From Dyella sp. A6 (GTDB lineage: Bacteria; Pseudomonadota; Gammaproteobacteria; Xanthomonadales; Rhodanobacteraceae): 64,000 nucleotides of DNA. Made by a program: the position numbers and the translations under genes. Below are positions 13,143 to 40,199 of this stretch, piece by piece. The stretch spans positions 2,728,001 to 2,792,000 of the forward strand of contig NZ_CP132911.1 in assembly GCF_036320485.1 (NCBI RefSeq), written 5' to 3'. The number at the start of each line of letters is the position of its first letter. The first letter of the stretch is position 1. Below the pieces are notes generated by a model. It had not been told where the DNA came from and made no database searches. It worked only from the letters and a program-made list of their open reading frames with translations.

Positions 13143-13158
13143 TTTAGATCGATACAAA
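13143..13158. promoter_or_regulatory. Operator-like site upstream of the GH29 fucosidase
   Basis: TTTAGATCGATACAAA differs at two of 16 positions from the perfect palindrome found before the TonB receptor (TTTAGATCGATCTAAA). It lies about 80-95 bases upstream of the fucosidase ATG. An even-length palindrome with a central CG is typical of LacI-family operators. The shared site implies common control of two loci about 27 kb apart. Confidence 0.55.
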
Positions 13159-13237
13159 CTAATCTATAGTCGGACCGTCATCCACCCCCAGCTGTGTAAA
13201 CCCAGCCCGCCGCCGCGGCGGCCCACCGGAGGTACGC

Positions 13238-14722
13238 ATGGATCGTCGCCGCTTTCTGATCGCCAGCTCCACCGCCGCAGTGCTCGGCACCGGCACCGCA
13301 CGATGGTCGGACGCCACGACCGCCCAGACGACAGGAACGCCACTGTCCACGCGCCCCGAGCCCACGCCGCAGCAGTTGCGCTGGCAGCGCGAGGAACTGG
13401 CGATGTTCGTGCATTTCACCGTCAACACCTTCACCGGCAGGGAATGGGGCGACGGCACCGAGTCGCCCGCGATCTTCAACCCGCGCCATCTCGACGCGCG
13501 GCAGTGGGCACGCACCGCCAGGGAAACCGGCTTCCGCAGCATGATCCTCACCACCAAGCACCATGACGGCTTCTGCCTGTGGCCCACCGCGACCACCCGC
13601 CACTCGGTGGCCAGCAGCCCGTGGAAAAACGGCAAGGGCGACGTAGTGCGCGAGTTTGTCGATGCCTGCCATGCCGAAGGGCTGGGCGTCGGCTTCTACC
13701 TTTCGCCATGGGACCGCAACGCCAAGAGCTACGGCAGCGGCAAGGCCTATAACGACTTCTACGTGGCGCAGCTCACCGAGCTGCTGACCCACTACGGCCC
13801 GGTCGTGGAAGTGTGGTTCGACGGCGCCAACGGCGAAGGCCCGTCCGGCCCGCACCAGGCCTACGACTGGCCGCGCATCCACGCCACCGTGCGCCGGCTG
13901 CAGCCCAACGCCGTGATCTTCTCCGACGCCGGACCTGACGTGCGCTGGATCGGCAACGAAAAAGGCGCTGCCGGCCTCACCTGCTGGTCCACCGTGGACC
14001 CGGCGCGGGTGCCCTACGCCGGCTTCGACCGCCCTTGGGTCGGCGACCTGCTGGGGCACGGCGACCCCTACGGTTCGGCCTGGCGACCCGGCGAAGCCGA
14101 CGTGTCGATCCGGCCCGGCTGGTTCTGGCATGCCGACGAAAACGACAAAGTGCGCAGCCCCGACAACCTGATCGAGCTGTACATGCAGTCGGTCGGTCGC
14201 AACAGCAAGCTGCTGCTCAGCGTGCCGCCCGATCGCGACGGCCTGTTCTACCCCACCGACGTGGCCGCCCTGCACGGCTTCGCCGCCCAACGCCGAACCA
14301 TGTTTGCCCACGACCTGCTGCACGGCGCCCGCGTCATCGCCAGCAGCAGCGCCACCGGCCATCGCGCCGCCAACGTGCTCGACGACAACCCGGACAGCTA
14401 CTGGACGCCACGCCAGAACGAGCGCGCTGCGACGCTCGACATCGAACTGCCGGCCGAGATCACGTTCGACACCCTCGACCTGCGCGAAGCGATCGCCCAC
14501 GGCCAGACCATCGCCAACTACCGCGTCGACCGCTGGCACCACGGCACCTGGAAACCCATGGCCTGGGGCACCACCATCGGCCACCGCAAACTCGAACGCT
14601 TCGACCCCGTCCGCACCCGCAAGCTGCGCATCGCCCTGGAGTACGGCTTCGGCGCGCCAAAGCTGGCGAAGGTCGCGGCATACCTCGGGCCGAAGCACAC
14701 CTACGGGCCGGGGCATGCGTGA
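13238..14722 (+). CDS. Secreted alpha-L-fucosidase, family GH29
   Basis: 494 residues. The N-terminus MDRRRFLIASSTAAVLGTG has a twin-arginine-like motif and a hydrophobic stretch, suggesting Tat export. The GH29 barrel spans about 45-350: MFVHFTVNTFTGREWGDG, TTKHHDGFCLW (105-115) and VEVWFDGANGEG, in which Asp195 is the expected nucleophile. A C-terminal beta-sandwich (about 365-485) with HRAANVLDDNPDSYWTP is an F5/8 type C (CBM32-like) module, common in alpha-1,3/1,4-fucosidases. GH29 enzymes release fucose from glycans. The upstream operator resembles those of the TonB receptor/GH92 locus, so it may act on N-glycan core or Lewis-type fucose. It ends 50 bases before a convergent acetyltransferase gene. 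Confidence 0.92.
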   Translation: MDRRRFLIASSTAAVLGTGTARWSDATTAQTTGTPLSTRPEPTPQQLRWQREELAMFVHFTVNTFTGREWGDGTESPAIFNPRHLDARQWARTARETGFRSMILTTKHHDGFCLWPTATTRHSVASSPWKNGKGDVVREFVDACHAEGLGVGFYLSPWDRNAKSYGSGKAYNDFYVAQLTELLTHYGPVVEVWFDGANGEGPSGPHQAYDWPRIHATVRRLQPNAVIFSDAGPDVRWIGNEKGAAGLTCWSTVDPARVPYAGFDRPWVGDLLGHGDPYGSAWRPGEADVSIRPGWFWHADENDKVRSPDNLIELYMQSVGRNSKLLLSVPPDRDGLFYPTDVAALHGFAAQRRTMFAHDLLHGARVIASSSATGHRAANVLDDNPDSYWTPRQNERAATLDIELPAEITFDTLDLREAIAHGQTIANYRVDRWHHGTWKPMAWGTTIGHRKLERFDPVRTRKLRIALEYGFGAPKLAKVAAYLGPKHTYGPGHA

Positions 14723-14772
14723 CGATTACGGCGACGCGTGGAGACCCCGGCTTGCAGCATGCATCCGGCAAT

Positions 14773-15219
14773 TCAAAGCGCAAAGTTGTAGTGGTAGAAG
14801 AAGTCGTCCTGCTTCCAGCCCAGCGACTCGTACAACGTCTGCGCCTGCACGTTCGCGCGCGCAGTAGAAAGGCTCAGGCTGACTGCGCCGTGGGCGCGAG
14901 CGACCTTCATGGCCTCGGCAACCAATGCCGTCGCCACGCCCTCGCGGCGCGCCTCGGGAGCAACGAACAGGTCACCCAGTATGAACGTGCGACCGGCGTC
15001 GGCAGACGAGAAACTTGGGAAAAGCTGAGTGAAACCGACCAGCTGCCGGGACAGCCCGGCCACCAGAATCAGCGACTCCTGACGCTGGAGACGCTCCCGC
15101 AGAAATGCATGCGCAAGATCCACATCTGCATTCTTCCTGCAAAACTGCCGATAGCTATCGAACATAGGCGCAAGTTGCTCCAGATCTTCGATCGTGGCTT
15201 GGCGAACGAGTACGGACAT
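14773..15219 (-). CDS. GNAT-family N-acetyltransferase
   Basis: About 148 residues. MSVLVRQATIEDLEQLAPMF opens the fold, LGDLFVAPEARREGVATALVAEA is the acetyl-CoA-binding A motif (Q/RxxGxG/A variant REGVAT) and ARANVQAQTLYESLGW is the typical B motif. The ATG at 15219 is chosen because AGGAGAAG lies just upstream; an ATG seven codons earlier would put that site inside the gene. GNAT proteins move acetyl from acetyl-CoA to an amine; the acceptor cannot be predicted. It stands alone, convergent with the fucosidase gene. Confidence 0.85.
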   Translation of the reverse strand: MSVLVRQATIEDLEQLAPMFDSYRQFCRKNADVDLAHAFLRERLQRQESLILVAGLSRQLVGFTQLFPSFSSADAGRTFILGDLFVAPEARREGVATALVAEAMKVARAHGAVSLSLSTARANVQAQTLYESLGWKQDDFFYHYNFAL

Positions 15220-15377
15220 AACCGCTTCTTCTCCTGGCATCGGTCGAAAGCCTTCGTCAAAGGCTATGGATCATCTGCAACCCGTCGCAGCCATTCGGCA
15301 GCGGAAGTGCAGCGATGGACAGGCGGGGCAAGGTTGGCGGACGCTTACCCTCATAGCAAGACTCTGTCGAACATGGG

Positions 15378-16301
15378 TCAATCGACATTCGACTTCCTGC
15401 CTGGACGCAACCAGAGGTTAAAACCAAGCAACACAAGTACCAGCAAAAAAATGCCCAGGAAAATATCACCCAAGAAGGCAATACCTTTGCGATAACGTTT
15501 ACCATGATCAAGGCGAAAAACGTCATCATTGAAGTTCAGTGCCGACACCTCAGGATGACCAACCTCGTAGGCAATCGGAACCTCCTTATTTGTGCGTGCA
15601 TAAATGACACGCGGATCATTTGAATGGTCGGCCAACTCTGCGTAGCCATGTATTGGCTTCGATACAACGCTTACCCCAGTTGATGGCGTGAATACATATT
15701 CAACATTGATGCCGCAAGACCTCCTTCCGCATATTCCACTATAGATATGGACAACATCAGCCGTGGTACGTGCGCCATTGTGTTGAATCTTAGCCTCGAT
15801 GCGTGCTTCGTTATGACCTGAAATCGAGAAGCCAAAAAAAAGCACCGCAAGGACGACACCAAAGAATGTGGCGGCAAATAAAAAGACAGATTTGCTGTTA
15901 CCTGAATCAACTCCCGCACTCACGCGCCTACCTAGAACCACCAACCCCATCAGCGCGATAAATATGAGCACCACCGAAGTAAGGTTGCTGTGAAGAAGAA
16001 TATCGGATGCTGACGACGGATCGAGAAGCATAGGAACAACCAAGATCAAGAGCGAAAACAGACTCCCGATGAGCACCCCATGCTTGTTAAGGGTCGTTTC
16101 CTTCGGTTCAATCCGGCATGTAACTCCATCACGCAATTGATTGCGTGACTCTTCGGAGAGATTATCAGCATAGATCACCAAGGGACTGGGCGATTTTTGC
16201 GAGGTCTTTACATACGCCTTGCCACAAGAGGGGCATTGCCAATCTGGAGCCTGATCCGTCACTTTTCTTTGATAACCACAAGCCTGACATTCGGTATCCA
16301 T
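15378..16301 (-). CDS. Zinc-ribbon multi-pass membrane protein of unknown function
   Basis: 307 residues, starting MDTECQACGYQRKVTD with a GGGGGTGGT ribosome-binding site. The N-terminus holds a zinc ribbon (CQACG and CPSCGKAY). Hydrophobic segments follow at about 75-95, 102-125 and 138-162, then a soluble region with a CGRRSCG pair (about 185-240), and a last helix near the C-terminus (GIAFLGDIFLGIFLLVLVLLGFN). The soluble part (GARTTADVVHIYSG, NVEYVFTP) recalls DUF3592-type domains; this is tentative. Codon use and base composition are clearly richer in A+T than the neighbours, which suggests recent transfer. No function can be assigned. Confidence 0.75.
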   Translation of the reverse strand: MDTECQACGYQRKVTDQAPDWQCPSCGKAYVKTSQKSPSPLVIYADNLSEESRNQLRDGVTCRIEPKETTLNKHGVLIGSLFSLLILVVPMLLDPSSASDILLHSNLTSVVLIFIALMGLVVLGRRVSAGVDSGNSKSVFLFAATFFGVVLAVLFFGFSISGHNEARIEAKIQHNGARTTADVVHIYSGICGRRSCGINVEYVFTPSTGVSVVSKPIHGYAELADHSNDPRVIYARTNKEVPIAYEVGHPEVSALNFNDDVFRLDHGKRYRKGIAFLGDIFLGIFLLVLVLLGFNLWLRPGRKSNVD

Positions 16302-16493
16302 ACCACCCCCTGTACGAGTTAATCCAAAAATACTGCCATGTACACTTTGAAAAAGTTCTCGCGCTAGATCTGCCGAGACATGCATCCACGATGGCGTGAT
16401 CGCTGTCAGCCGCAGCTTGTCCAAACCGCATGCCGCTCTGAACGATAGAAGGCAGGCATTAGAATGATGTTTCGAGGCACCGCAGACCGAGCT

Positions 16494-16649
16494 TATTGGT
16501 TCCGTCTAAGCATATCGTCGTCAGCCTGCACCATGCGTTCATGCTCGCCCTTGCAGGGAAGTCCGCGCCCCACATCCACGATACAGTCCGTTGCCGTAGG
16601 CCTTGCAGGCTCCCAACGCAGTCACGGCTGGATGGTCGAAGCAGTTCAT
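16494..16649 (-). pseudogene. Frameshifted remnant of a small zinc-finger (B-box-like) protein gene
   Basis: From the ATG at 16649, which keeps a perfect AGGGAGG ribosome-binding site, the frame reads MNCFDHPAVTALGACKAYGN, then GLYRGCGA. Intact relatives that I recall read C-x2-C-G-K-G-L-C-x2-C here. Shifting one base restores the family pattern VGRGLPCKGEHERMVQADDD up to a TAA at 16494. Two expected cysteines are tyrosines, and the membrane part usual in this family is absent. It is therefore read as a frameshifted, truncated fossil in the A+T-rich patch. The family assignment is from memory of similar proteins. Confidence 0.5.
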
Positions 16650-16797
16650 GACGCCCTCCCTGAAGATTCCAGAGCATTCTTGACCAACAGTCGCTGGTTT
16701 GCACGCGGGAGGCGGATTCGGCACGGGACCACGGCCAACATTGGCTACTGACTAATGATGTAACACCCACTCACTCAGACGCATGTTCTGGCCTCGC

Positions 16798-17706
16798 TCA
16801 CGCCTCCGTCCCGGCACCGCCTCCGACATAATTCTTCAACGCCGCAAAAAGATGGTCGTACACCGCGCGCACGCGGTGGCTGGTGCGCAGGTCTTCGTGC
16901 ATGACCAGCCAGGTGTCGAGTTCGAGTTCGAAGGCGTCGGGCAGCAGGCGTTCCAGTTGGCGGTCGCGTCGGGCGATAGCGCACTGGCAGACGCCGATGC
17001 CGAAACCGGCGCGCAGTGCGGCCAGTTGGGTCAGATCGCTGTCAGTGCGCAGCGCGAAGTGTTCGCGTCCGAACGGCAGGCGGTGGCGGATCGCCCGCAG
17101 GGCAGGCGTCTCGTGGTCGAAGCCGATGATCGCGTGCTGCGCCAGCTCGCCTACTTTTTGTGGCCGGCCGTGCGCCTTGAGGTAGCGACGGTGCGCGTAT
17201 AGCCCAAGCGGAATGCTGCCTACCCGCCGGGCCACCAGTGCGCCCTGGGTGGGGCGCACCATGCGCACGGCGATGTCGGCGTCCTTGCGCAGCAGATCCT
17301 CGACCCGGTTCGACGGCGACAACTCGATCACGATGCCGGGATAGCGCTTGCGCAGCGTCACCAGCATCGGCGGCAGCACCTCGGCACCAACCACGTCGCT
17401 GCAGCTGATCCGCACCACGCCGCGCACGTCTTGCCGGCTGCCCGACGCGGCACGGCGCAACGCCGCCGAGGCAGCATCCATCGACTGCGCGTGCGCGGCC
17501 AGCTCGTCGCCGAGCTCGGTCAGCGCCAGACCGCGCGGCGAGCGGGTGAACAGTGCCACGCCCAGCGCCACCTCCAGTTGGCGGATGTGCCGCCCCACGC
17601 TGGGCTGGGTCATGCCCAGCATGCGCGCGGCCGCCGACAGGCTGCCTTCGCGCGCCACCGCGAGGAAGGATCGGTAAAGCTCCCAGCCCGGTTCGGTCAT
17701 GGCCAT
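16798..17706 (-). CDS. LysR-family transcriptional regulator
   Basis: About 302 residues. The N-terminal winged helix-turn-helix (FLAVAREGSLSAAARMLGMTQPSVGRHIRQLE, about 13-45) is typical LysR; the C-terminal part is a periplasmic-binding-like effector domain (about 95-295). The start is MAMTEPG at 17706 or the ATG two codons later; longer upstream sequence in frame is arginine-rich and non-homologous. It is divergent from the epimerase-like gene at 17799 with only 92 bases between them, the classic arrangement for a LysR protein controlling its neighbour. Effector unknown. Confidence 0.88.
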   Translation of the reverse strand: MAMTEPGWELYRSFLAVAREGSLSAAARMLGMTQPSVGRHIRQLEVALGVALFTRSPRGLALTELGDELAAHAQSMDAASAALRRAASGSRQDVRGVVRISCSDVVGAEVLPPMLVTLRKRYPGIVIELSPSNRVEDLLRKDADIAVRMVRPTQGALVARRVGSIPLGLYAHRRYLKAHGRPQKVGELAQHAIIGFDHETPALRAIRHRLPFGREHFALRTDSDLTQLAALRAGFGIGVCQCAIARRDRQLERLLPDAFELELDTWLVMHEDLRTSHRVRAVYDHLFAALKNYVGGGAGTEA

Positions 17707-17798
17707 GCATTTATGTATAGCAGATGTTTGATGTTGGGCAATTTTCCTTTGACCTGGACGAGCCCATGCTGGGGTCGCCTTCAACCACGGAGAACGCG

Positions 17799-18794
17799 AT
17801 GAACACGACACGCAAGGTGCTGGTACTGGGCGCCACCGGCGGCTTCGGCGGTGAGACCGCCGCCGCGCTGTTGCGTCGCGGCTGGCAGGTACGCGCACTG
17901 GTCCGCGATGCCACACGGCCGGGGCTGTCGCCGGACATCGAATGGATCGACGGCGACGCCATGCGCGCCGACGACGTGCTGGCGGCAGCACGCGGCGTGG
18001 CGGTGATCGTGCATGCGGTCAATCCGCCGGGCTATCGCCACTGGTCGACGCGGGTGCTGCCGATGATCGACCACACCATTGCTGCCGCCCGTGCCAACGG
18101 TGCGCGCATCGTGCTGCCCGGCACCGTCTACAACTACGGCCCCGATGCGCTGCCGCTGCTGCACGAGGATTCGCCGCAGCATCCACTGACCCGCAAGGGT
18201 GCGATCCGGGTGGAACTGGAGCGCCGGCTGGAACGCGCGGCCAATGAGGGTGTGCGCACGGTGATTCTGCGCTGCGGCGACTTCTTCGGCACGCGCACGG
18301 CAAGCAGCTGGTTTGCGGCGCTGGTGAAGCCGGGCCGCCCGGTGCGCGCAATGCTGTACCCGGGCCGTCGCGACCTACGCCACGCCTGGGCCTACCTGCC
18401 CGACGTCGCCGAGACCGTGGTGCGCCTGCTGGAACGCGAGTCCGCGCTGGCGGTGTTCGAGCGCGTCCACTTCGGCGGCCACTGGATCGACGGCAACGCG
18501 CTGGCCAACGCCATCCGTGCCGCGGCCAGCCAGCCGCGGCTGCGCGTGCGCGCGTTTCCATGGTGGCTGGCTACGCTGGCTGCGCCCTTCGTCACCCTGC
18601 TGCGCGAACTGCGCGAGATGCGCTACCTGTGGCAACGACCGCTGCAGTTGGACAACCGCAAGCTGGTCGCACTGCTCGGCGCCGAACCGCACACCAGGCT
18701 GGCGCAGGCGGTGGAGACCACGCTGCGCGGCATGCACTGCCTGCCGGCAGCCGATACTGCGAAACGGCCCGCACCCCTGCCTTCGCCTCGCTGA
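17799..18794 (+). CDS. NAD(P)-dependent epimerase/dehydratase-like (extended SDR) protein
   Basis: 331 residues. The Rossmann glycine motif GATGGFGG sits at about 10-17 (VLVLGATGGFGG); ARGVAVIVHAVNPPGYRHW and GTVYNYGPDA follow the layout of atypical SDRs. The usual active-site YxxxK is not obvious; NYGPD occupies the place of the tyrosine. The protein is likely cytosolic and binds NAD(P)H. The ATG at 17799 has CGGAG seven bases upstream. It is divergent from a LysR regulator that probably controls it, and ends about 23 bases before the convergent end of a second LysR gene. Substrate unknown. Confidence 0.82.
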   Translation: MNTTRKVLVLGATGGFGGETAAALLRRGWQVRALVRDATRPGLSPDIEWIDGDAMRADDVLAAARGVAVIVHAVNPPGYRHWSTRVLPMIDHTIAAARANGARIVLPGTVYNYGPDALPLLHEDSPQHPLTRKGAIRVELERRLERAANEGVRTVILRCGDFFGTRTASSWFAALVKPGRPVRAMLYPGRRDLRHAWAYLPDVAETVVRLLERESALAVFERVHFGGHWIDGNALANAIRAAASQPRLRVRAFPWWLATLAAPFVTLLRELREMRYLWQRPLQLDNRKLVALLGAEPHTRLAQAVETTLRGMHCLPAADTAKRPAPLPSPR

Positions 18795-18817
18795 CCCGAC
18801 ACCTGCGCCAACGCGAC

Positions 18818-19714
18818 TCAGTGCGTACGAATGAAATCGACGAAGGCGCGCAGCGGTGCCGGCAGCTGGCGACGGCCGGGGTAATAGAGGAACGGGCCGC
18901 TGAAGGGTTGCCACCACGGTTCCAGCACCGGCTCCAGTTGCCCGCTTTCCAGGTGCGGTTTCAGCCAGTCCTCGAACAGATGGATGATGCCCAGACCGGC
19001 CAGCGCGGCATCGACCTTGAGATCCGCGCCCGCACCCAGGCGCACCAGCAGCGGACCGGTGGGGTCGACGCGGACCACCTCGCCGTCGCGCTCGAATTCC
19101 CATGTCGGCATCACGCCGCTGGCGAACTGGCCGCGCAGGCAGGCGTGTTCCAGCAGGTCGCGCGGATGCTGCGGACGCCCCCGCGCGTCGAGATAGGCCG
19201 GCGCCGCCGCAGTGGCCATGCGCTGCACGCGCGGACCGATCGGTACCGCGATCATGTCCTGCTCCAGCCGCTCGTCGTAGCGGATGCCGGCATCGCAACC
19301 GATGGCCAGCAGGTCGACGAAGCTTTCCTCGATCACGACCTCCAGGCGGATGTCGGGGTAGGTCTTGAGGAACGGAACGATGATCGGCGGCAGCACCAGC
19401 CGTGCCGCGCTGGCCGGCACATTCAGCCGCAGCGTGCCGACCGGGCGGTCGCGATAGTGGTTGACCACGTCGAGCGCGGCCTCGACCTCACCCAATGCCG
19501 GGGCCAGTCGTTCGGCCAGACGCGCACCGGCTTCCGTGGGGCTGACGCTGCGCGTGGTGCGATGAAGCAGGCGCACGCCCAGTCGTGTTTCCAGCCGACG
19601 CACCGCCTCGCTGAGGCTGGATGCCGAGCTGCCGCTGGCGCGCGCGCCCTCGCGGAAGCCGCCCGCGCGCACCACCGCCATGAAGGCAAAAAGATCCTGC
19701 AGGTCAGCTGCCAT
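18818..19714 (-). CDS. LysR-family transcriptional regulator
   Basis: 298 residues. The helix-turn-helix lies at about 8-60 (FMAVVRAGGFREGARASGSSASSLSEAVRRLE), followed by LGVRLLHRTTRSVSPTEAG, the typical linker of the CrgA/DsdC-like branch. The substrate-binding domain spans about 92-290. It is transcribed divergently from the pyridoxal reductase-like gene at 19821, with 106 bases between, and probably regulates it. It is a separate gene from the LysR at 16798; the two are not close copies. Confidence 0.88.
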   Translation of the reverse strand: MAADLQDLFAFMAVVRAGGFREGARASGSSASSLSEAVRRLETRLGVRLLHRTTRSVSPTEAGARLAERLAPALGEVEAALDVVNHYRDRPVGTLRLNVPASAARLVLPPIIVPFLKTYPDIRLEVVIEESFVDLLAIGCDAGIRYDERLEQDMIAVPIGPRVQRMATAAAPAYLDARGRPQHPRDLLEHACLRGQFASGVMPTWEFERDGEVVRVDPTGPLLVRLGAGADLKVDAALAGLGIIHLFEDWLKPHLESGQLEPVLEPWWQPFSGPFLYYPGRRQLPAPLRAFVDFIRTH

Positions 19715-19820
19715 TGTTCGATATCCCGCACAGGCCGTGCCGATTTGATCGGATTATCGTAACGCCGGTGCCTGCCTATGCTGTGTGCCATCCACGACAC
19801 AACACCCACGGAGACCTTCC

Positions 19821-20699
19821 ATGACCGATATCAAGCAGGCCGGCCAGTTCCGGCTGGGCCACCGCGACGTAGCCCGCATGGGCTACGGCGCCATGCAGCT
19901 GGCCGGCCCCGGTGTGTTCGGACCGCCGAAGGACCATGCCACCGCGCTTGCCGTACTGCGCGAGGCGATCGAGGCCGGCGTCGACCATATCGACACCAGC
20001 GACTTCTACGGCCCGCACGTCACCAACAAGCTGATCCGCGAGGCACTGCATCCCTACGCCGACAACCTGTCGATCGTGACCAAGGTCGGCGCGGTGCGTG
20101 GCGCGGATGCCTCCTGGCTGCCGGCGCAACAACCCGACCAGTTGGTGAGCGCGGTGCACGACAACCTGCGCCATCTCGGTGCCGACGTGCTCGACGTGGT
20201 GAACCTGCGTGTGATGGGCGACGTGCACGCGCCCAGCGAGGGTTCCATCGAGGCGCAGTTCAGCACGCTGGCCGAACTGCAGCAGCGCGGCCTGATACGC
20301 CATCTGGGCCTGAGCAATGTCACGCCGGCACAGGTCGAGCAGGCGCAGCGCATTGGCGAAGTCGTCTGCGTGCAGAACCACTACAACCTGGTACATCGCG
20401 CGGACGACGCCTTCATCGACGCACTGGGCCGGCAAGGTATCGCCTACGTGCCGTTCTTCCCGCTGGGCGGCTTCACGCCGCTGCAGTCCAACGCCCTGTC
20501 GGCCGTGGCCGCGCGTCTCGGCGCCACGCCAATGCAGGTGGCACTGGCCTGGCTGCTGGCGCGTGCGCCGAACATCCTGCTGATTCCCGGCACATCGTCG
20601 CCTGCCCACCTGCGCGAGAACCTGGCTGCCGCAGCACTGACCCTGCAGGCGGAAGCGCTGGCCGAACTGGATGCCATCGGCCGAACGCAACCGGTCTGA
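19821..20699 (+). CDS. pdxI: Aldo/keto reductase, PdxI (YdbC)-like pyridoxal reductase
   Basis: 292 residues. The protein closely follows the Escherichia coli YdbC/PdxI sequence as I know it: GYGAMQLAGPGVFGPP, DTSDFYGPHVTNKLIREAL, VLDVVNLRVMGD, AYVPFFPLGGFTPLQSN and ILLIPGTSSPAHLRENLAA. PdxI reduces pyridoxal to pyridoxine with NADPH. Catalytic Asp and Tyr (DTSDFY) and Lys (VTKVG) are present; the usual tetrad histidine is replaced by Asn (VVNLR), a feature of this subgroup. CGGAG precedes the ATG at 19821; an in-frame start twelve codons upstream is not supported. A divergent LysR gene probably controls it. Confidence 0.88.
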   Translation: MTDIKQAGQFRLGHRDVARMGYGAMQLAGPGVFGPPKDHATALAVLREAIEAGVDHIDTSDFYGPHVTNKLIREALHPYADNLSIVTKVGAVRGADASWLPAQQPDQLVSAVHDNLRHLGADVLDVVNLRVMGDVHAPSEGSIEAQFSTLAELQQRGLIRHLGLSNVTPAQVEQAQRIGEVVCVQNHYNLVHRADDAFIDALGRQGIAYVPFFPLGGFTPLQSNALSAVAARLGATPMQVALAWLLARAPNILLIPGTSSPAHLRENLAAAALTLQAEALAELDAIGRTQPV

Positions 20700-20754
20700 G
20701 CCACACGACAACGCGCACGCGGCGCTTGAGACACCGGACCACCCGCTTTTGTTC

Positions 20755-20870
20755 GTCATGCCTGCGCAGGCAGGCATCCAGTGCCTTCAGGTTCAATCGC
20801 TCGAAGGCGCTGGATGACCAGCCCTGCGGCTGTTGCAAGGCACATCCAGCTTTCGCAGTCGGCATTCCGC
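20755..20870. repeat. Intergenic repeat with a TGCCTGCGCAGGCA palindrome
   Basis: Between pdxI and pgpA. A 14-bp perfect palindrome (20759-20772) is followed by GGCATCCAGTGCCTT and, about 50 bases on, by its echo CGCTGGATGACC. Such TCATGCCTGCGCAGGCAGG elements are dispersed repeats in Xanthomonadales, related in style to the element at 3184. It probably acts as a transcript-end or stability hairpin between the two convergent genes. Confidence 0.45.
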
Positions 20871-20906
20871 GCGGCTCAGTCACTGAGCCGCCACCGACCA
20901 TCGCGT

Positions 20907-21407
20907 TCAGTGCAGCGGCACCAGCGCGCAGGCCAGCACGACCGCCGCGAACACGCCGGCGATCACGTCGTCGACCATCACCCCAAGGCCGCCTTTCAGG
21001 TGCCGGTCGAACCAGCGGATCGGCCACGGCTTCCACACGTCGAACAGGCGGAACAGCGCGAAACCGGCCAGCACCGCCCACCACGGTGCCAGCAGCGCCG
21101 GCAGCAGTGCCAGCCACTGGCCGACGAACTCGTCCCAGACCAGGCTGCGGTGATCGTCCACGCCCAGCGCACGACCGGCGCGCTCGCAGGCCCACACGCC
21201 CAGCACGAAGGCCAGCACCAGCACCAGCAGATACCAGGGCAAGGACAGGTGGCGCAGCAGCAGCCAGGGCAGGATCGCCGCCAGCGAACCGAAGGTGCCC
21301 TGCGCCCTGGGTGCCAGGCCGGAACCGAAGCCGCAGGCGATCCAGCCGGATACCGAGGCGGTGAGCCGGCGACGCTGTTCGGCGGTGAGTACTTTGCGAT
21401 CGGTCAT
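20907..21407 (-). CDS. pgpA: Phosphatidylglycerophosphatase A
   Basis: 166-residue inner-membrane enzyme that removes phosphate from phosphatidylglycerophosphate to make phosphatidylglycerol. Family features are ASVSGWIACGFGSGLAPRAQGTFGSLAA at 17-44, DEFVGQWLAL, LFRLFDVWKPWPIRWFDRHLKGGLGVMVDDVIAG, and hydrophobic segments at about 40-75 and at the C-terminus. Its ATG overlaps the thiL stop in an ATGA, so the two are translationally coupled, the usual thiL-pgpA order. Confidence 0.93.
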   Translation of the reverse strand: MTDRKVLTAEQRRRLTASVSGWIACGFGSGLAPRAQGTFGSLAAILPWLLLRHLSLPWYLLVLVLAFVLGVWACERAGRALGVDDHRSLVWDEFVGQWLALLPALLAPWWAVLAGFALFRLFDVWKPWPIRWFDRHLKGGLGVMVDDVIAGVFAAVVLACALVPLH

Positions 21408-31264: not shown

Positions 31265-31301
31265 TCGGGGCCTCGGCAGATGGGGTTGGACAAGACCCGA
31301 A

Positions 31302-31307
31302 ATTGTA
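31302..31307 (-). promoter_or_regulatory. -10 element of a probable glyA promoter
   Basis: TACAAT on the minus strand about 38-43 bases before the glyA ATG, inside the 63-base gap after the DUF817 gene. No good -35 hexamer is seen at 17 bases, so this call is tentative. Confidence 0.35.
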
Positions 31308-31327
31308 GCGCCGGCGCCGGGTTGCAG

Positions 31328-32188
31328 CTACTGGCCCGGTTTCCGGCGGTGAATCGCCGAAACCATGACGTAGCTGATCACCATCAGCAGCAGCCAGGAC
31401 CCCAGTTTGGCCAGCGGCACCGGATGCCAGCCCGCGCGCTGCGCCGGGTAGATCCAGGCATGGGTGTAGGTGCCCACGTTTTCGGCCAGCCAGATGAACC
31501 CGGCCACCAGCACAAAACCCAGCAGCAGTGGCATGCGCCGGTGCACACACCGGATGCGGAAGTGCACCCAGGTCGGCCCGAACAGCCAGGCCAGCACCAG
31601 GAACAGCAGCCCGCGCAGGTCCGGCAGCCAGTGGTGACTGAAGAAATTCACGTAGATCGCCACCGCCAATGCGACGCTGGACCCGAACGGCGGGTGCCGG
31701 GTGAAACGGAAGTCGAACAGCCGCCAGGCACGCGCGATATAGCTGCCCACCGAGGCATACATGAAGCCGGTGAACAGTGGCACGCCACCCATGTGCAGGT
31801 ATGACGCCCCCGGGTAACTCCACGCGCCGATCCCGGTCTTGAACCATTCCATGGCCGTACCGACCACGTGGAACAGCACGATCACCCGCGCCTCTTCCAG
31901 GCTTTCCAGCCGGCTGGCCAGCAGGCCAAGCTGGATCGCCACGGCAGACACGGTCAGGAAGTCGTAGCGCGACAGCAGCGCATGGGCCGGATACCAGCGC
32001 CAGCTACCGACCAGCAGCGCTACCATCAACCCGCCAAACAGGCAGGCGGACGCCTGTTTCAGCCCGAAACAGAGAAATTCATAGACGCCGACACCGATGC
32101 GACCGCAACGGCTGGCGCAGCGGGCCAGCGTGGCATCCAGCCGAAACCACCAGCGTGCTGCACCGGCGGGGTGTGGGGTCTTCATCAT
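31328..32188 (-). CDS. DUF817 family multi-pass membrane protein
   Basis: 286 residues with about seven or eight hydrophobic segments. YEFLCFGLKQASACLFGGLM, ARVIVLFHVVGTAMEWFKTGIGAWSYPG, GGVPLFTGFMYASVGSYIARAWRLFDFRFTRHPP and VAIYVNFFSHHWLPDLR are the conserved blocks of the DUF817 (YoaT-like) family. The function of the family is unknown. Start ATG at 32188 has GAGGGCG upstream and is followed by a second ATG; longer in-frame sequence is rejected. It is divergent from ettA and lies just before glyA, but glyA seems to have its own promoter. Confidence 0.88.
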   Translation of the reverse strand: MMKTPHPAGAARWWFRLDATLARCASRCGRIGVGVYEFLCFGLKQASACLFGGLMVALLVGSWRWYPAHALLSRYDFLTVSAVAIQLGLLASRLESLEEARVIVLFHVVGTAMEWFKTGIGAWSYPGASYLHMGGVPLFTGFMYASVGSYIARAWRLFDFRFTRHPPFGSSVALAVAIYVNFFSHHWLPDLRGLLFLVLAWLFGPTWVHFRIRCVHRRMPLLLGFVLVAGFIWLAENVGTYTHAWIYPAQRAGWHPVPLAKLGSWLLLMVISYVMVSAIHRRKPGQ

Positions 32189-32366
32189 GGCTCGCGCCCT
32201 CGGCGCCTGCAAAAGCCACAGCCTCGCCGCCCGCGCGGCGCCTGCCCGGGCGACGCCATGGCGGCACGCGGGCCGATCGGCGATAATCGGAGGCCTTTCC
32301 CCTTTGTTCCTCACTATGCCAGGCCGCGCCTCGACGCGGCCTGCGGACCGCCCTACGGGAGCCAGC

Positions 32367-34019
<1,653 letters not shown>

Positions 34020-34028
<9 letters not shown>

Positions 34029-34091
34029 TCGCCTGACCTCTTCCCTCCGGGGAGGAGGATGGGAGAGATACCAGGCTGGCGATCAGGCCAG
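34020..34091. terminator. Long inverted repeat at the convergent end of ettA and the GH92 gene
   Basis: CTGGCCTGATCGCC (34020-34033, overlapping the ettA stop) is the exact reverse complement of GGCGATCAGGCCAG (34078-34091). The 44-base loop contains a smaller stem (CCTCC/GGAGG around 34045-34055). There is no T-run, so it is a candidate for a factor-dependent or processing hairpin and not a textbook terminator. Confidence 0.5.
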
Positions 34092-34165
34092 CTGCCGGAG
34101 CATCCGGCAAGAACGTGCCTGCACCTGCGACGGCCGTTGGCGCAGCAGGTGCAGGCCGAATCCGA

Positions 34166-36565
34166 TCACGGTTTGCGTGCTGTCATGGATGGCGGCGCGT
34201 CAGCCGGTGCCGCACCCCAGGCCTTGTTCGGCCGCGGCCCCATCGTCAGCACCAGCCTGGCGCCGCCGGCAATGTCGGCCTGGCTGAACCAGGGGCGGTT
34301 CCATGGCTTGCCGTTGAGGGTGGCCGACTGGATGTACTTGTTCCGCGCCGAATTGTTGCGCGCGTCGATCTCCAGAACCCGGCCATGTCCCATGCGCAGA
34401 CGGACCCGGTCGAAGATCGGGCTTCCCAGAATGTAGTCGGGGCTGGACGGATCGACGGGATAGAAGCCCATCGCACTCAGCACATACCACGACGAGGTCG
34501 ATCCCTGATCGTCCATGCCGGGGTAGGCATAGCCGCTGGCATCGCTGCCGTAGAGCTGGACCAGAATGCGGCGTACCAGTGCCTGCGTCTTCCACGGCTC
34601 GCCGCTCCACGCGTACAGGTAGGCCGCCTGCTGGTCGGGCTGGTTGCCCTGTACGTACTCACCGATCAGGCCGGTGCAGTCGCGACAGATGCCCTTGGCG
34701 CGGTACGGCGTCGAGAAGAAAGCGTCGAGCTTGGCATTGAACGCGGCACGCCCGCCCAGCAGGTCGATCAGACCCTGCACGTCCTGCGGCACCAGCCATA
34801 GCGTGGACCAGCCCGAAGCCTCCTTCATCATGAAGTTGTAGTACGGCTCGCCCGGATCGAAGGGCGATATCCACTTGCCGTCGGCAGTGCGTCCGCGCAT
34901 GAAGCCTACCGACGGATCGAACACGTGACGGTAGTTCGCCGCACGGGCGAGAAACATCCGTGCATCGGCCGTCTTGCCAAGCCGCCGTGCCATGTCGGCC
35001 AGCGCGTGGTCGTCCCAGGCGTATTCCAGCGTGGTGGCGACACCGGCCTTGCCGCCGGCATACGGCGGACTGGGATTGCCCGGCGGAACGATGTCGGAGA
35101 TCCAGCCGTTCTTCATGTATTCGGCCAGGTAGGGGCGCGGCCCGTCGGGATCGGTCGCGTTCCTGCGCAGCCACGGATAGACCGAGGCGTAGTCGAACCG
35201 GATGCCTCGCCGCCAGGCACCGTCGTACATCAGCACGGCATGGTCGCCATGAAACGAGGTGTCCATGTAACCGCGCTCACGCGCCCGGTCCAGCTCGGAC
35301 CGCATGATGTCCTGCACCACCTTAGGTTCCAGCAGCATCAGCAGCACGATCTGATTGCGCCCGGTGTCCCAGAACGGCACCGGTCCGTAGTGGTCGTAGC
35401 TGGCAACGTGCGTCTGGCCGTGGGCATCGGTGAACGACTGGCCTTTGCGCGCGACCAGTCGCGGGCTGGCAAAGGAATGGTAGAGCGTTGAGTAGAACAG
35501 CATGCGCTGCTTCGGCGTGCCGCCGCTGACCTGGACACGGCCAAGCAGTTGCGCCCATGCCTTGCGCGCCCGGGCATGTACACGTGCGAAGTCGCCGTGC
35601 GGGTCCTCCTCGCGCAACCGCTGTTCTGCTTCTGCCAGGCTGTGGCCATGGGCGATGCGAACCAGCACCTGCTCGCCTGCATGCGTATCGAACGTGACGT
35701 AAGCACCCGCATAGCTGCCGGACACGCTGCGCCGGCCGGCCTTCACGTCCTTGTCGCCGAGATTCCAGCCGTCCCGCTGCGGTAGCGCGTGGAAGGTACC
35801 GAAGCGAGCAAAAGGACGCGAGAATTCAGCGACGAACCAGGGACCGTCGATCGAGTTCGCGGCATCCTTGCCTGCCGCCATGCCGCGGATGGTGTGGTTG
35901 TCGACCACCTCCACCTGGCCGCCGCGGCGACGCAGGTTGATCACGACATGCGAACGCCGGCTCGCCGGGAAGGTGAACCGCATCAGGCTGGTCCACTGCG
36001 TCGCGGTCAGCTCGACCCGGGTACGGAAGGTGTTCAGATAGACCGAGTAATAGCCGGGCGAGGCTTTCTCTCGCGACTTGTCGTAATACGACTGCGCGTA
36101 GTCCGGAGGCACGGTCCAGTCGCCCACCACCGGCATGATCATCGGCTGGGCGTTGCCGCCATAGGTCGAGCCACCGCCCCCGGTAAAGCCGATCATCGTC
36201 GGACTGCTGTAGTAGTAGGGCGTGGCGACCCCCGTGGGGTAGCTCAGATCGATGTTGACGTTGACCGGTGCCGCCTCGACCGCGCTGTGCGGCAGGATCG
36301 CGCCCGGCGAGGTCATGCCCGAGTAGAGCGGCTCGCCCGGTGGCGGCGCGTTGCCGATCAGCGACTGCCGATCCAGCGGCGCGGTGCCGACCAGCGGATT
36401 GGCCTCGTCCACGGCCTGTGTCGCAACTGATGCCGCCTGGTCGCCCCTGGCATGGACAACGGCCATGCCGGCCAGCATGGTGACGAGAAGTGCGATCGCC
36501 GTGAATCCCTGTCGCACCGAGACCGGCAAGGCGCAGCAGCAAAGACGTACAGCAGATCTAACCAT
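34166..36565 (-). CDS. Secreted GH92-family alpha-mannosidase, divergent signature
   Basis: 799 residues with a hydrophobic N-terminal export signal (FTAIALLVTMLAGMAVVHARG). GH92 enzymes are Ca-dependent inverting alpha-mannosidases acting on N-glycans and yeast mannan. The N-terminal beta-sandwich (DLSYPTGVATPYYYSS, GFTGGGGSTYGGNAQPMIMP) and the barrel (GPVPFWDTGRNQIVLLMLLEP, RGYMDTSFHGDHAVLMYDGAWR) are clear. The likely acid is Glu582 (KEASGWSTLWLVPQD) and the base region is GMDDQGSTSSWYV (Asp685/686). At 636-650 it has EYVQGNQPDQQAAYLY where most members have GNEPxHH, which may alter substrate binding. It follows the TonB receptor by 132 bases. Confidence 0.88.
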   Translation of the reverse strand: MVRSAVRLCCCALPVSVRQGFTAIALLVTMLAGMAVVHARGDQAASVATQAVDEANPLVGTAPLDRQSLIGNAPPPGEPLYSGMTSPGAILPHSAVEAAPVNVNIDLSYPTGVATPYYYSSPTMIGFTGGGGSTYGGNAQPMIMPVVGDWTVPPDYAQSYYDKSREKASPGYYSVYLNTFRTRVELTATQWTSLMRFTFPASRRSHVVINLRRRGGQVEVVDNHTIRGMAAGKDAANSIDGPWFVAEFSRPFARFGTFHALPQRDGWNLGDKDVKAGRRSVSGSYAGAYVTFDTHAGEQVLVRIAHGHSLAEAEQRLREEDPHGDFARVHARARKAWAQLLGRVQVSGGTPKQRMLFYSTLYHSFASPRLVARKGQSFTDAHGQTHVASYDHYGPVPFWDTGRNQIVLLMLLEPKVVQDIMRSELDRARERGYMDTSFHGDHAVLMYDGAWRRGIRFDYASVYPWLRRNATDPDGPRPYLAEYMKNGWISDIVPPGNPSPPYAGGKAGVATTLEYAWDDHALADMARRLGKTADARMFLARAANYRHVFDPSVGFMRGRTADGKWISPFDPGEPYYNFMMKEASGWSTLWLVPQDVQGLIDLLGGRAAFNAKLDAFFSTPYRAKGICRDCTGLIGEYVQGNQPDQQAAYLYAWSGEPWKTQALVRRILVQLYGSDASGYAYPGMDDQGSTSSWYVLSAMGFYPVDPSSPDYILGSPIFDRVRLRMGHGRVLEIDARNNSARNKYIQSATLNGKPWNRPWFSQADIAGGARLVLTMGPRPNKAWGAAPADAPPSMTARKP

Positions 36566-36657
36566 GATGCTTTCCGGAAAGATGAGGGCGCACCCTCGAT
36601 GTGCGGACGCGAACCCGACGCGTGGCAGCAGCGACTAGCGTGCCGGGACAAGGTTGC

Positions 36658-36687
36658 CGGGACGGGGAGATCGCCCTCCCCGTCCCG
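36658..36687. terminator. Strong hairpin between the TonB receptor and the GH92 gene
   Basis: CGGGACGGGGAG (36658-36669) and CTCCCCGTCCCG (36676-36687) form a perfect 12-bp GC stem with a six-base loop, about ten bases after the receptor stop. No T-run follows in the direction of transcription. It may partly terminate, or protect the 3' end of receptor mRNA so that receptor is made in excess over the enzyme. Confidence 0.55.
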
Positions 36688-36697
36688 CGGTCCATGC

Positions 36698-39600
36698 TCA
36701 GTCGCCGGAGCCGAACTTGTAGGTCAGCCCCAGGTAGTACTGACGACCCGCATACTCCAACTGGCTGAGTCGTGCGGTGGTGTCTCCACCCAGGTACGAG
36801 CGTGGCATCGAGCGGGTCAGGTTGATGATCGACGCGGTCACCATCAGGTGCTTGTTGAACTTGTAGTCACCGTTCAGATCCAGCTCGTGATAGGGCCGCG
36901 TGTACACCGGAAGACCCGATGCCAGCCCCTGCATGGTGCGGCCGGTCCAGTTGTTGGTCACGCGCAGCAGCAGACCGTGCTTCTCATAGAACAACGACAC
37001 GTTCGCCGCATATTTGGCACTGCCGATCAGCTCCGACTTGCCGACCTGCGTGTCGCCCAGCGACACGGCGGTCTCGTTGGTCTTGTTCAAGGTGTAGTTG
37101 GCGATATAGCCGAAACCCATGTCGTAGGTGTGCTGCGTGTAGAGCTCCAGCCCCTTCGACGTACCCGAACGACCGTTGGCATTGGTGCTGTACTGCATGA
37201 ACTGCTGCTGCGTGCCGCCGACATCCACGTTGATGTTGTTGACGGTGACAGGCACCACGAAGTTCTTCACCTTCTTCTGGAACAGGTCCAGGCCGACCAC
37301 CGATTCGGGTGCGTAGTACCACTCGCCCGCCAGATCGAACTGGGTGGCGGTGAACGGCTTCAGGTTGATATTGGCGCCACTGCCATACCAGCCCGGCAGC
37401 GAGGCACCGAACTGCTTGCGGTCGTTGTAGTACGCCTGCGTAACGTCGGTCAGGCTGCCAAGCTGGGCCAGGTCGGTGTAGTTGGCACGCGCCATCGCCT
37501 GCGACCCCGCCAGCCGCAACACGACGTTATCGGCCAGGGTCCATGCGATGTTGAAGCTGGGCAGCAGCTTGTTGTACCGCTTGCTGGTCGACGCATTGGT
37601 GAAGGTCTGGACGACCGACTGCTCGCGCGGCAGATACTCGAAGTCACCCGGCGCGCACGCGCCGCCACCGGCATTCACGCCACTGGCGGGACAGATCAGG
37701 ATATTGCCCGCCGCGTCGTGGTAGTACACGGCGTTCAGGGTCGTGATCTCGTCGGCCACGGTGATGTTCTGCTGCGTGCTGACAAAGCGCAGGCCTACGT
37801 TGCCACGCAGCGTGCCGGTATCGAAATTCGCCTGGATGTAGGCGGCGGAAATCTTCTCCTGGATGGCGGACCGGTTTGCGGGGTGGTTATAGAGCACCCG
37901 GGTGTAGGTCGAGTTGAGATAGTTGTAGTAAGCCGGGAAATTGATCGCCGGGAACAGATTGTCGTTGTAGGCCAGCGTGTTGCCATTGAGTGAAGTCGGC
38001 AGCAGGAACCCGGCCGGCAGCTGGCCGGCATTGGGGTCACAGGTCTGGAATTGCTGCGTGGTGCCCTTGCAGTACCAGCGCAACTCGTTGCTCTGCTGCT
38101 CGGCATGGCTGTCGCGGTACTTCACGCCGAACTGCAGCGACTGCAGCCAGTCACTGTTGAAGGCCCATGTGAAGTCGGCCTGCGCGAAGTTCTGCGAGTT
38201 GCTGGTATTGACCATGCCCGAACCGGTCGAACCGAGATCCACCTGCCCTTCCCCGGCCAGCATGTTCTGCAGCACCTGGGGCGAAACCGTGATGGTCGGC
38301 CGGCCGTTGAGTGTCCAGGCCGCACCGGTGCTGCCGTCCACCCACTGGCCATTGACGAAGTTGCGCGGCTTGGCGGCCATGCCCAGTTCGATCGACGGTC
38401 CGCCGGTCGCCCAGGTCCGCCCAACATTGAAGGTGGCGCTGAGATCACCGCCGCCATCCCATTCGCCTTCCAGGTTGATGGTCTGCGATGTGGCCTTTTC
38501 GACGGAATAGTTGCCGTTGAGCCAAGGGATTTCGGTGGAACAGACATCCACCGCCTGCCGCGTCGCGCCAGTCACCGGGTTGGTCAGCGAGTTGCAGCCC
38601 GTACCTGCCGGCGGAAGGACATAGTTCGCGCCGGTGACGACCGTGTTCGAGGGGTCGAAGGTCAAGCCGTTGGGCGCCAGCAATCGGCCCTGCTGGTCGG
38701 CGTAACTGCCGGTGGGCAGCCCCCACTCAGGCACCTCGAGCGTGTTGGTGATCTGGGTCTGCTGCCGTTCGAAGCGGAAGTAGTTGCCGGTCAGCAGCAA
38801 CTGATCGGTGGGCTTGAACTGCATGGTTGCCTGCAGGCCCTTGGTCTTCAGGTCAAGCTGATTCCGGCTGGTGGAGAACTGTTGCGGCATCCAGTAGCCC
38901 GAATAGCTTCTGCCGGACTGGTCGGTGACGCCGCCACCCGGCCACAGCGCGATGTTGGAGGTCACGGCGCTGCTGTAAGGCTGTCCGTTCACGTTGACCG
39001 GCGGCTCGGTACAGGTCGACTGGCTGGTGCAGTTGTTCGCCCACCAGTGCCAGCTCGTCGCATTGGCCGTGTAGTCGATGTCGCGGCGCTTCTGGTAAGA
39101 CCCCGCCAGCAGAACGCCGAACGTCTGGTCCTTGTTCTTCCAGGACCACAACGCCGAAACCTGCGGCGTGATCTTGCCGCTATTGTCCGAGCCCGCCGCG
39201 TTGACCGACACGAAGCCGTCGTTGGCTTTCATCTCCAGCGGGCGACGCGTGCGCAGATCCACATTGCCGCCGATGCCGCCCTCGTCCAGCCGCGCCTGCA
39301 GGCTCTTGTAAAGCTTGATGTCCGAAAACATGTTGGCCGGCAACATCGAATAGTTGAACGAGCGCGTAAGCCCTGCGGAGGTATCGGCCGACGCGACGTA
39401 GTTGCCGTTCAGCTCGGTCAGCGTGAGTTCGGGGGCAAGGCCGCGGATACTGACCGTCTTGCCTTCGCCGGCCTCGCGGGTGATGACGACGCCCGGCACA
39501 TGCGCCAGCGCATCGGCAATGTTCTTGGCCGGAAACTGCGCGATGTTCTGCGCATTGATGACCTCGACGATGGAGTTGGAATAGCGCTTGTCCTGCAGAT

Positions 39601-39880
39601 TCTGGTCGATCGACTGACGATAGCCAGTCACCATGATCGCCTGCAGGTTGGTGGGGTGATTTCGGTCCGTCTTCTTGCCCGCCTTTTTCTTCGTTTTGCC
39701 GGTATCGGCACTGGCGGACTGCGCGGTCGCCGCAGCCGTAGCCGCAAGGGCATGAGTCGCTGGCAATCCGGTGGCAGAGGCCGCTTCGGGCATGCCCAGG
39801 ACACCACCGACGGACAGCGTCGCCAGAACCAGTGCGACGTACAACGGCTTGTGCTTGGAAGCGTGTGGCAGGTAAGTCAT
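36698..39880 (-). CDS. TonB-dependent receptor, Xanthomonas/Caulobacter type (probable glycan transporter)
   Basis: 1060 residues. After a signal region and an A/K-rich linker comes a TonB-box-like stretch (LQAIMVTGYRQSIDQNLQDK) and the plug (FPAKNIADALAHVPGVVITRE, GKTVSIRGLAPELTLTELNG, GGIGGNVDLRTRRPLE). A 22-strand barrel follows to YYLGLTYKFGSGD. The length and plug signature are those of the large subfamily that takes up oligosaccharides in Xanthomonas and Caulobacter. It is energised by TonB/ExbBD encoded elsewhere. The GH92 gene downstream and operators upstream suggest a mannose-rich glycan as substrate. GGAGAG precedes the ATG. Confidence 0.92.
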   Translation of the reverse strand: MTYLPHASKHKPLYVALVLATLSVGGVLGMPEAASATGLPATHALAATAAATAQSASADTGKTKKKAGKKTDRNHPTNLQAIMVTGYRQSIDQNLQDKRYSNSIVEVINAQNIAQFPAKNIADALAHVPGVVITREAGEGKTVSIRGLAPELTLTELNGNYVASADTSAGLTRSFNYSMLPANMFSDIKLYKSLQARLDEGGIGGNVDLRTRRPLEMKANDGFVSVNAAGSDNSGKITPQVSALWSWKNKDQTFGVLLAGSYQKRRDIDYTANATSWHWWANNCTSQSTCTEPPVNVNGQPYSSAVTSNIALWPGGGVTDQSGRSYSGYWMPQQFSTSRNQLDLKTKGLQATMQFKPTDQLLLTGNYFRFERQQTQITNTLEVPEWGLPTGSYADQQGRLLAPNGLTFDPSNTVVTGANYVLPPAGTGCNSLTNPVTGATRQAVDVCSTEIPWLNGNYSVEKATSQTINLEGEWDGGGDLSATFNVGRTWATGGPSIELGMAAKPRNFVNGQWVDGSTGAAWTLNGRPTITVSPQVLQNMLAGEGQVDLGSTGSGMVNTSNSQNFAQADFTWAFNSDWLQSLQFGVKYRDSHAEQQSNELRWYCKGTTQQFQTCDPNAGQLPAGFLLPTSLNGNTLAYNDNLFPAINFPAYYNYLNSTYTRVLYNHPANRSAIQEKISAAYIQANFDTGTLRGNVGLRFVSTQQNITVADEITTLNAVYYHDAAGNILICPASGVNAGGGACAPGDFEYLPREQSVVQTFTNASTSKRYNKLLPSFNIAWTLADNVVLRLAGSQAMARANYTDLAQLGSLTDVTQAYYNDRKQFGASLPGWYGSGANINLKPFTATQFDLAGEWYYAPESVVGLDLFQKKVKNFVVPVTVNNINVDVGGTQQQFMQYSTNANGRSGTSKGLELYTQHTYDMGFGYIANYTLNKTNETAVSLGDTQVGKSELIGSAKYAANVSLFYEKHGLLLRVTNNWTGRTMQGLASGLPVYTRPYHELDLNGDYKFNKHLMVTASIINLTRSMPRSYLGGDTTARLSQLEYAGRQYYLGLTYKFGSGD

Positions 39881-39982
39881 TTCTCGCTCTCCACCTTGTG
39901 TGCGTCCTGACGGAACCGGCCCCGTGATCCCCTTCGAACACGTACAGCCGAGCGCGCGACGCTTGATGTATGGGACTTCTTC

Positions 39983-40018
39983 ACGCCCTGAATTTAGATC
40001 GATCTAAATTTAGGGCGT
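39983..40018. promoter_or_regulatory. Extended palindromic operator before the TonB receptor
   Basis: The core AATTTAGATCGATCTAAATT (39991-40010) is a perfect 20-bp palindrome with central CG, as in LacI-family operators. The symmetry goes on outward (ACGCCCT at 39983 and AGGGCGT at 40012) with a single mismatched pair, giving a 36-base inverted repeat. It lies about 100-135 bases upstream of the receptor ATG, where a repressor would block the promoter. Confidence 0.75.
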
Positions 40019-40183
40019 ACATAACCCGGTGTTTCCGGCTATTTCCGATACCCCGAAACCAGCGCTGTCGTACTGCTTGGCAGAGCGCATCCATCACGCT
40101 CCCCCCGCGTGTTTCAGATCGATCCGGCCGAACAACTTGATCGGGCTGACACGGCCAAGAAAGCCAGTCGTTGCCCATGTGGA

Positions 40184-40199
40184 TTTGGATCGATCTAAA
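40184..40199. promoter_or_regulatory. Second operator copy upstream of the TonB receptor
   Basis: TTTGGATCGATCTAAA differs from the core palindrome at one of 16 positions and is centred 191 bp from the first operator. A weaker partial match, TTTCAGATCGATC, begins at 40112 between them. Two distant operators allow looping repression, or the second could serve pyrF's side; looping is the simpler view. Confidence 0.6.

Follow-up and report, generated by a model that had tools for sequence, protein, structure and literature searches.

A 16-bp palindrome, TTTAGATCGATCTAAA, recurs in a 64,000-nucleotide stretch of Dyella sp. A6 (genome positions 2728001-2792000; hereafter the window, with positions counted from its first nucleotide), once ahead of a GH29 fucosidase gene and twice, far downstream, ahead of a TonB-dependent receptor gene followed by a GH92 alpha-mannosidase gene. 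We consider it probable that a LacI-family repressor, whose gene occupies genome positions 2896306-2897355, uses this palindrome as its operator and that the two together define a dispersed, ManR-like regulon for mannoside and N-glycan scavenging. The predicted regulon takes in the receptor and GH92 genes of the window, its GH29 gene, a GH2-GH125-GH92 operon, a stand-alone GH92 gene, and a further GH92 gene divergent from a LacI-MFS-PfkB-AGE operon. The general scheme is already known; the interest lies in an identified candidate repressor, a regulon retained despite the scatter of its genes, and an apparent repeated capture of the fucosidase.

At up to three mismatches, the window holds three sites of the TTTAGATCGATCTAAA type, at 39993-40008 (no mismatch), 40184-40199 (one mismatch), and 13143-13158 (two mismatches), against a chance expectation of 0.01; none of 100 dinucleotide-preserving shuffles gave three. 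A sequence-only reading of this DNA had reported the same positions and mismatch counts when it proposed that a shared LacI-type operator links the fucosidase to the receptor/mannosidase locus, and its assignments of the GH29 fucosidase, the GH92 enzyme, and the TonB-dependent receptor agree with Pfam and NCBIfam. The relevant features of the window are as follows.

12088-13056, minus strand: aldo/keto reductase gene, divergent from GH29 and sharing its operator-bearing intergenic region (Pfam).
13143-13158, no strand: predicted operator O1, TTTAGATCGATACAAA, 80 bp from the GH29 start and 87 bp from the start of the divergent aldo/keto reductase.
13143-13170, plus strand: promoter-like match TTTAGA-16-TATAGT, partly covered by O1 (consensus match only).
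13238-14722, plus strand: GH29-family alpha-L-fucosidase with an F5/8 type C domain (Pfam; PDB sequences).
34166-36565, minus strand: GH92 alpha-mannosidase (GH92d), downstream of the receptor on the same strand (Pfam; NCBIfam; PDB sequences).
36698-39880, minus strand: TonB-dependent receptor of NCBIfam family TIGR01782 (Pfam, NCBIfam).
39985-40016, no strand: 32-bp inverted repeat with one mismatch and O2 at its center.
39993-40008, no strand: predicted operator O2, TTTAGATCGATCTAAA, a perfect palindrome; the receptor start codon is 113 bp away.
40184-40199, no strand: predicted operator O3, TTTGGATCGATCTAAA, lying between the divergent starts of pyrF (182 bp away) and the receptor (304 bp away).
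40381-41199, plus strand: pyrF (orotidine 5'-phosphate decarboxylase), a divergent neighbor not thought to be a member (Pfam, NCBIfam).

Throughout the window's own genome (G000; 3.72 Mb, a single contig), the motif at up to three mismatches matches eight places only, and the reversed motif matches none; a relaxed palindrome and a weight matrix, used beside the mismatch search, added two sites. One site outside the window (1624489) precedes a GH2-GH125-GH92 operon, the first in-frame ATG past it (L027 10571) being 65 bp away, and the GH2 protein of this operon carries Mannosidase_ig domains; another (2417875) lies 31 bp ahead of a stand-alone GH92 gene; the two added sites (2896173 and 2896274) lie in the gap that separates a LacI-family gene from a divergent GH92 gene. 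Each of the genome's four GH92 genes thereby stands beside a site or downstream of one in a likely operon. Further sites ahead of certain glycoside hydrolase genes or a LacI gene were what the sequence-only reading had named as support, and such sites were found before GH2, GH125, and LacI. The dispersed regulon that it envisaged is supported by the scattered sites and by a candidate repressor; the fucosidase link is not general, and membership of GH20 or GH18 genes was not shown in this genome. Three hits with three mismatches (1661946, 1792988, and 3250145) and two to the relaxed palindrome (3281838 and 3618280) were dropped, no obvious glycosidase adjoining them in gene calls judged by eye.

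The LacI-family gene between 2896306 and 2897355 (plus strand, 350 amino acids, ~128 kb away) encodes a protein matching PF00356 at 37.5 bits (cut-off, 27) along with PF13377 and PF00532, which gives it a LacI helix-turn-helix and a periplasmic-binding-like sugar domain, and is likely the repressor for which the earlier reading had no gene. One operator lies 17 bp ahead of the start codon used, a position that autoregulation would predict. On a first matrix built without either of them, the two sites at this gene score 23.1 and 15.7 bits. The genome has six other LacI-family genes, whose best motif score is 16.1 bits, for a different-looking palindrome, with the other five at 12.0 bits or below. 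Downstream of the candidate follow, in order, genes for an MFS transporter, a PfkB kinase, and an AGE isomerase, which by homology make a route from mannose through fructose to fructose-6-phosphate plausible. Separately, a LacI-family gene at L026 ~10922 (near 2910900 in the genome) has a different palindrome, TTGATATCGATATCAT, upstream of its helix-turn-helix region, possibly its own operator.

Of 117 sampled genomes of the family, 76 (the window's own included) encode an ortholog of the LacI protein at an identity of at least ~61%; one ortholog is split over two contigs. We took the best 80 of 313 loci found by LacI similarity alone, with the motif ignored in fetching, from Rhodanobacter, Dyella, Luteibacter, Frateuria, Fulvimonas, Oleiagrimonas, and other bins, and scanned them with a matrix of seven own-genome sites. 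In 79 of the 80, the 260 bp upstream of LacI contain a site (two sites in 67 loci, one in 11, and three in one), and 163 of 170 sites in these loci have a LacI, GH92, or receptor gene starting no more than 420 bp downstream; the reversed-motif control gave a single match. The central CG of the operator is nearly invariant (C8 in 170/170 sites, G9 in 169/170). Gene order is likewise kept: as divergent neighbor of LacI, 72 loci have the same GH92 and seven the GH2 mannosidase, the remaining locus being a 3.3-kb contig, and of the 71 loci long enough to include them, 68 have the MFS, PfkB, and AGE genes all downstream of LacI.

Pairs of neighboring operators less than 200 bp apart (loci L112-L191, mostly in the LacI/GH92 intergenic region; n = 72) are spaced at 89 to 93 bp in 42 cases and at 101 to 106 bp in 26, with one at 98 bp and three elsewhere (19, 79, and 112 bp). 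The two spacing groups, about one helical turn apart, could reflect DNA looping or merely kinship. The operator also stands ahead of a glucokinase-like gene in Dyella loci L150, L153, and L163 (Pfam check for the L163 protein only) and, in L127, ahead of a XylR-type AraC regulator.

Within the genus, motif matches occur in 14 of 15 genomes, the exception being an 85%-complete assembly of 1.5 Mb, and the reversed control gave none in any of them. With each palindrome counted once and sites assigned to genes by tblastn, 47 of 48 distinct sites lie no more than 600 bp upstream of a gene for a glycosidase, a TonB receptor, LacI, a glycosylasparaginase, or an unknown secreted protein. The nearest gene is LacI or its GH92 for 10 sites, GH92c for seven, the window-type receptor for six, GH2 for five (distances running to the first residue of the reference piece, 36 bp in the own genome, not to a start codon), and a second receptor for five; GH29 and a third receptor account for four each, pyrF for three, the unknown secreted protein for two, and a fifth GH92 and a glycosylasparaginase for one each. 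For two of the three sites nearest to pyrF, the window-type receptor is 304 and 491 bp away. The gene for a 680-amino-acid, probably secreted protein of G009 (L102:5562-7604) has three operator-like sites ahead of it, two being strong; the protein has no Pfam match, and its C-terminus alone resembles the Azi28/AziU2 structures.

In some relatives, genes that are scattered here lie together. The window-type receptor/GH92 pair carries a site in six genus relatives, and in four of these (G005, G008, G009, and G013) it adjoins GH125 and GH92b in one cluster, these stretches having been fetched because they bear the motif. GH2 is also within the fetched stretch in G005 and G013, and the order in G009 is GH3, GH125, GH92, a GH2-like gene, receptor, GH92, a different GH29 fucosidase, and receptor. 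G002 and G012 instead resemble the window: their LacI proteins are 90 to 91% identical to that of the window genome, their receptor/GH92 pair sits beside pyrF, and the site recurs at their stand-alone GH92 and GH2 loci as well as at LacI and the receptor. In G005, a site lies 58 bp ahead of a gene for which glycosylasparaginases rank first among solved relatives (E value, 1e-108), followed by isoaspartyl peptidases and asparaginases at ~1e-31. Glycosylasparaginases are N-glycan-core enzymes that cut the bond between N-acetylglucosamine and asparagine.

Taken at the level of sequence, these features suggest the following scheme. Without sugar, the LacI repressor would sit at the operators and block transcription, occupying its own promoter and the divergent GH92 promoter as well. 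The region ahead of GH29 has a single promoter-like match, which points toward GH29 and has its -35 hexamer inside O1; repression of the fucosidase by occlusion would fit, because O1 overlaps this putative -35. Mannose freed from N-glycans or other mannosides would be taken up, presumably as the sugar of the encoded transporter, isomerized to fructose, and phosphorylated. Mannose or a close derivative would then relieve repression, so that receptor, exo-mannosidases, fucosidase, and catabolic enzymes would rise jointly. Mannose and mannosides are the best-supported common theme of the members, and N-glycan is a likely substrate.

The place of the fucosidase in this scheme is less uniform. The top two solved relatives of the window GH29 protein are F5/8-domain proteins (4zrx and 8ayr), followed by the named alpha-1,3/4-fucosidases 3ues, 3mo4, and 3uet and then by SpGH29 (6orf) and its kin. 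Orthologs occur in 12 of the 15 genus genomes, and a scan of 300 bp upstream found a strong site at four of them, scoring 30.0 bits in the window genome and 24.0 bits in G010, G011, and G013, with a weak one (13.6 bits) in G002. The proposed operator link of GH29 to the receptor/GH92 locus is not general in the genus, a strong site being confined to these four orthologs. The seven site-less orthologs (G003, G004, G007, G008, G009, G012, and G014) bear a different element, TCATATTTGAA. Its stretches are L194, L196, L198, L199, and L201-L203, and in four genomes two copies at no more than one mismatch stand 19 bp apart. We do not regard TCATATTTGAA as a regulon marker because the paired pattern (up to three mismatches) occurs once per genome in seven of 15 genomes and only before GH29, single copies not having been searched for genome-wide.

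A tree of the GH29 proteins, which leaves several forks open and gives the window a long branch, calls for at least two changes in operator presence, and 48 of 500 label shuffles reach as few. Two gains fit, as does a gain followed by loss and regain, and the GH29 gene was apparently taken into the regulon more than once. Repeated capture is suggested because the operators differ in position and sequence between the window lineage and the G010/G011/G013 lineage. We therefore put forward, tentatively and at somewhat less than even confidence, that within one genus the same alpha-1,3/4-type fucosidase was captured more than once by a mannose repressor, most relatives keeping the fucosidase-only TCATATTTGAA element. 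If true, such convergent capture would show that a single substrate, for example plant N-glycans, yields both mannose and fucose and that selection favors co-regulation of the fucosidase even without gene clustering.

A number of observations weigh against a mannose-responsive N-glycan regulon under this repressor. In the operon, the MFS protein exceeds the NCBIfam cut-offs for both the glucose/galactose (gluP) and the L-fucose (fucP) permeases; the best NCBIfam matches of PfkB (fructokinase, 203 bits; cut-off, 450), AGE (D-mannose isomerase, 242.6 bits; cut-off, 600), and LacI (MalI) all fall below cut-off, and the closest solved relatives of AGE are labeled N-acyl- or N-acetylglucosamine 2-epimerase. 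Locus L128 alone among the 80 has no site at LacI. In the window, O3 is closer to the divergent pyrF (182 bp) than to the receptor, and the receptor region yielded no sigma-70-like promoter; in G012, a site lies 249 bp from pyrF and ~650 bp from the receptor. The tally of 48 genus sites is descriptive and not blind, its gene panel having been partly enlarged after site inspection (second and third receptors, fifth GH92, glycosylasparaginase, and unknown protein); it starts from sites, so that receptor and GH92 orthologs without one are not counted, and two of the 48 stand ahead of the secreted protein without a known family. The LacI-type site is absent from the 300 bp scanned upstream of seven of 12 GH29 orthologs, G012 among them. 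Finally, the own genome has no glycosylasparaginase match at an E value of 1e-40, and we rejected this enzyme as a general regulon member, the site being present at one of seven orthologs.

The last two points also bear on the alternative that the same repressor and operator serve free mannose, plant mannosides, or fungal alpha-mannan, the fucosidase being incidental and lineage specific. Its core members, mannosidases and a mannose-like route, suit that account as well, as do the four strong sites among 12 GH29 orthologs and the missing glycosylasparaginase match. It sits less easily with an operon that combines GH125 and GH92 with a GH2 carrying Mannosidase_ig domains, with the G009 cluster, in which another type of GH29 gene follows GH92d closely, or with the glycosylasparaginase under the site in one relative and a layout like that of the Xanthomonas nix cluster as described (PMC5700972). 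On balance we judge it unlikely, although deserving of real weight.

A narrower alternative concerns O1, which might serve the divergent aldo/keto reductase at 12088-13056, the fucosidase itself escaping LacI repression. O1 is almost as near to the reductase (87 bp) as to GH29 (80 bp), and G010, G011, and G013 show the same divergent gene pair, the site there being 106 to 107 bp from the reductase. In those same three genomes, however, the site is 41 to 42 bp from GH29, and in the window the sole promoter-like match faces GH29 with its -35 within the operator. Both genes could be controlled, and control of the reductase by O1 is possible; that it alone is controlled seems improbable. Least probable by far is that the palindromes are chance occurrences or belong to another regulator, for although one of the six other LacI loci outscores the weaker site of the proposed repressor (16.1 versus 15.7 bits), that repressor also has the 23.1-bit site, the remaining five loci reach 12.0 bits at most, the site is kept before LacI in 79 of 80 loci, and the shuffles and the reversed-motif controls in the window, genome, genus, and LacI loci led us to reject a chance origin of the motif.

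With the ManR-like mannoside regulon as the preferred reading, its parts can be set beside known systems. In Shewanella, the Man pathway as outlined comprises manR, manP, omp-Man, manI, and manK (PMC2996990), and a survey of LacI-family regulators lists five groups for mannose and mannosides under ManR (PMC4052901). Like the Shewanella pathway in that outline, the present regulon would join, by comparative genomics, a regulator, a putative sugar permease, a TonB-type outer membrane receptor, a putative isomerase, and a putative kinase in one mannoside pathway; a TonB-type receptor under the same site, as in a ManR-type regulon, occurs in the own genome and in six genus relatives. Unlike the Shewanella pathway and the ManR groups as listed, it adds several GH92 enzymes, GH125, GH2, and GH29, over five chromosomal places. 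The ManR likeness is one of gene kinds. RegPrecise reportedly holds a ManR regulog for the Xanthomonadales.

The nix cluster of Xanthomonas campestris, as described, consists of a TonB receptor and nine hydrolase genes, nixD-L (PMC5700972), and in X. campestris a GH29 enzyme is reported to remove core alpha-1,3-fucose and a GH92 enzyme core alpha-1,3-mannose (PMC10154615). The window genome shares with nix the association of a TonB receptor with a fucosidase, mannosidases, and other glycosidases, and has GH92, a GH2 mannosidase, a fucosidase, and a receptor; the likeness is by enzyme set. In contrast to nix, its members are spread over five separate chromosomal places, and contiguity is found only in some relatives. 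The sequence-only reading had likened the window genes to the clustered Xanthomonas enzymes, a comparison strengthened by the four relatives in which the receptor/GH92 pair stands in a contiguous nix-like cluster. The main text of the nix description makes no mention of LacI (PMC5700972).

The proposed assignment would give the mannosidase and TonB-receptor genes of the family (Rhodanobacter, Dyella, Luteibacter, and others) a named candidate operator and repressor, and would make this a sugar regulon held together by operators although its genes are scattered. An otherwise generic TonB receptor would gain a likely substrate class, mannose-rich or N-glycan chains, and the GH29 promoters would form a natural series with the fucosidase gene in or outside the regulon.

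A near-match to the motif, TTTRGATCGTGACAAG, was considered as a fucose/GH20 extension of the regulon and rejected; it precedes a gene cluster probably for L-fucose catabolism as well as a receptor-GH20 locus, and at up to one mismatch its only occurrences among the 15 genus genomes are two in the own genome. The catabolic cluster (3085000-3099000; L040) bears the motif TTTGGATCGTGACAAG and includes genes for a glucokinase-like protein, an aldo/keto reductase, an amidohydrolase, an SDR protein, an FAA hydrolase, and an enolase-superfamily dehydratase. The receptor-GH20 locus (L039) has a TTTGGATCGTGACAAG-like motif upstream of it too; the 14 other genus genomes have none. Elsewhere in the window, positions 1907-7305 hold two similar-looking pairs of membrane-protein genes in tandem, probably ABC permeases by eye (1907-3160/3288-4610 and 4740-5981/5992-7305), with an HlyD-type gene nearby at 9628-10899.

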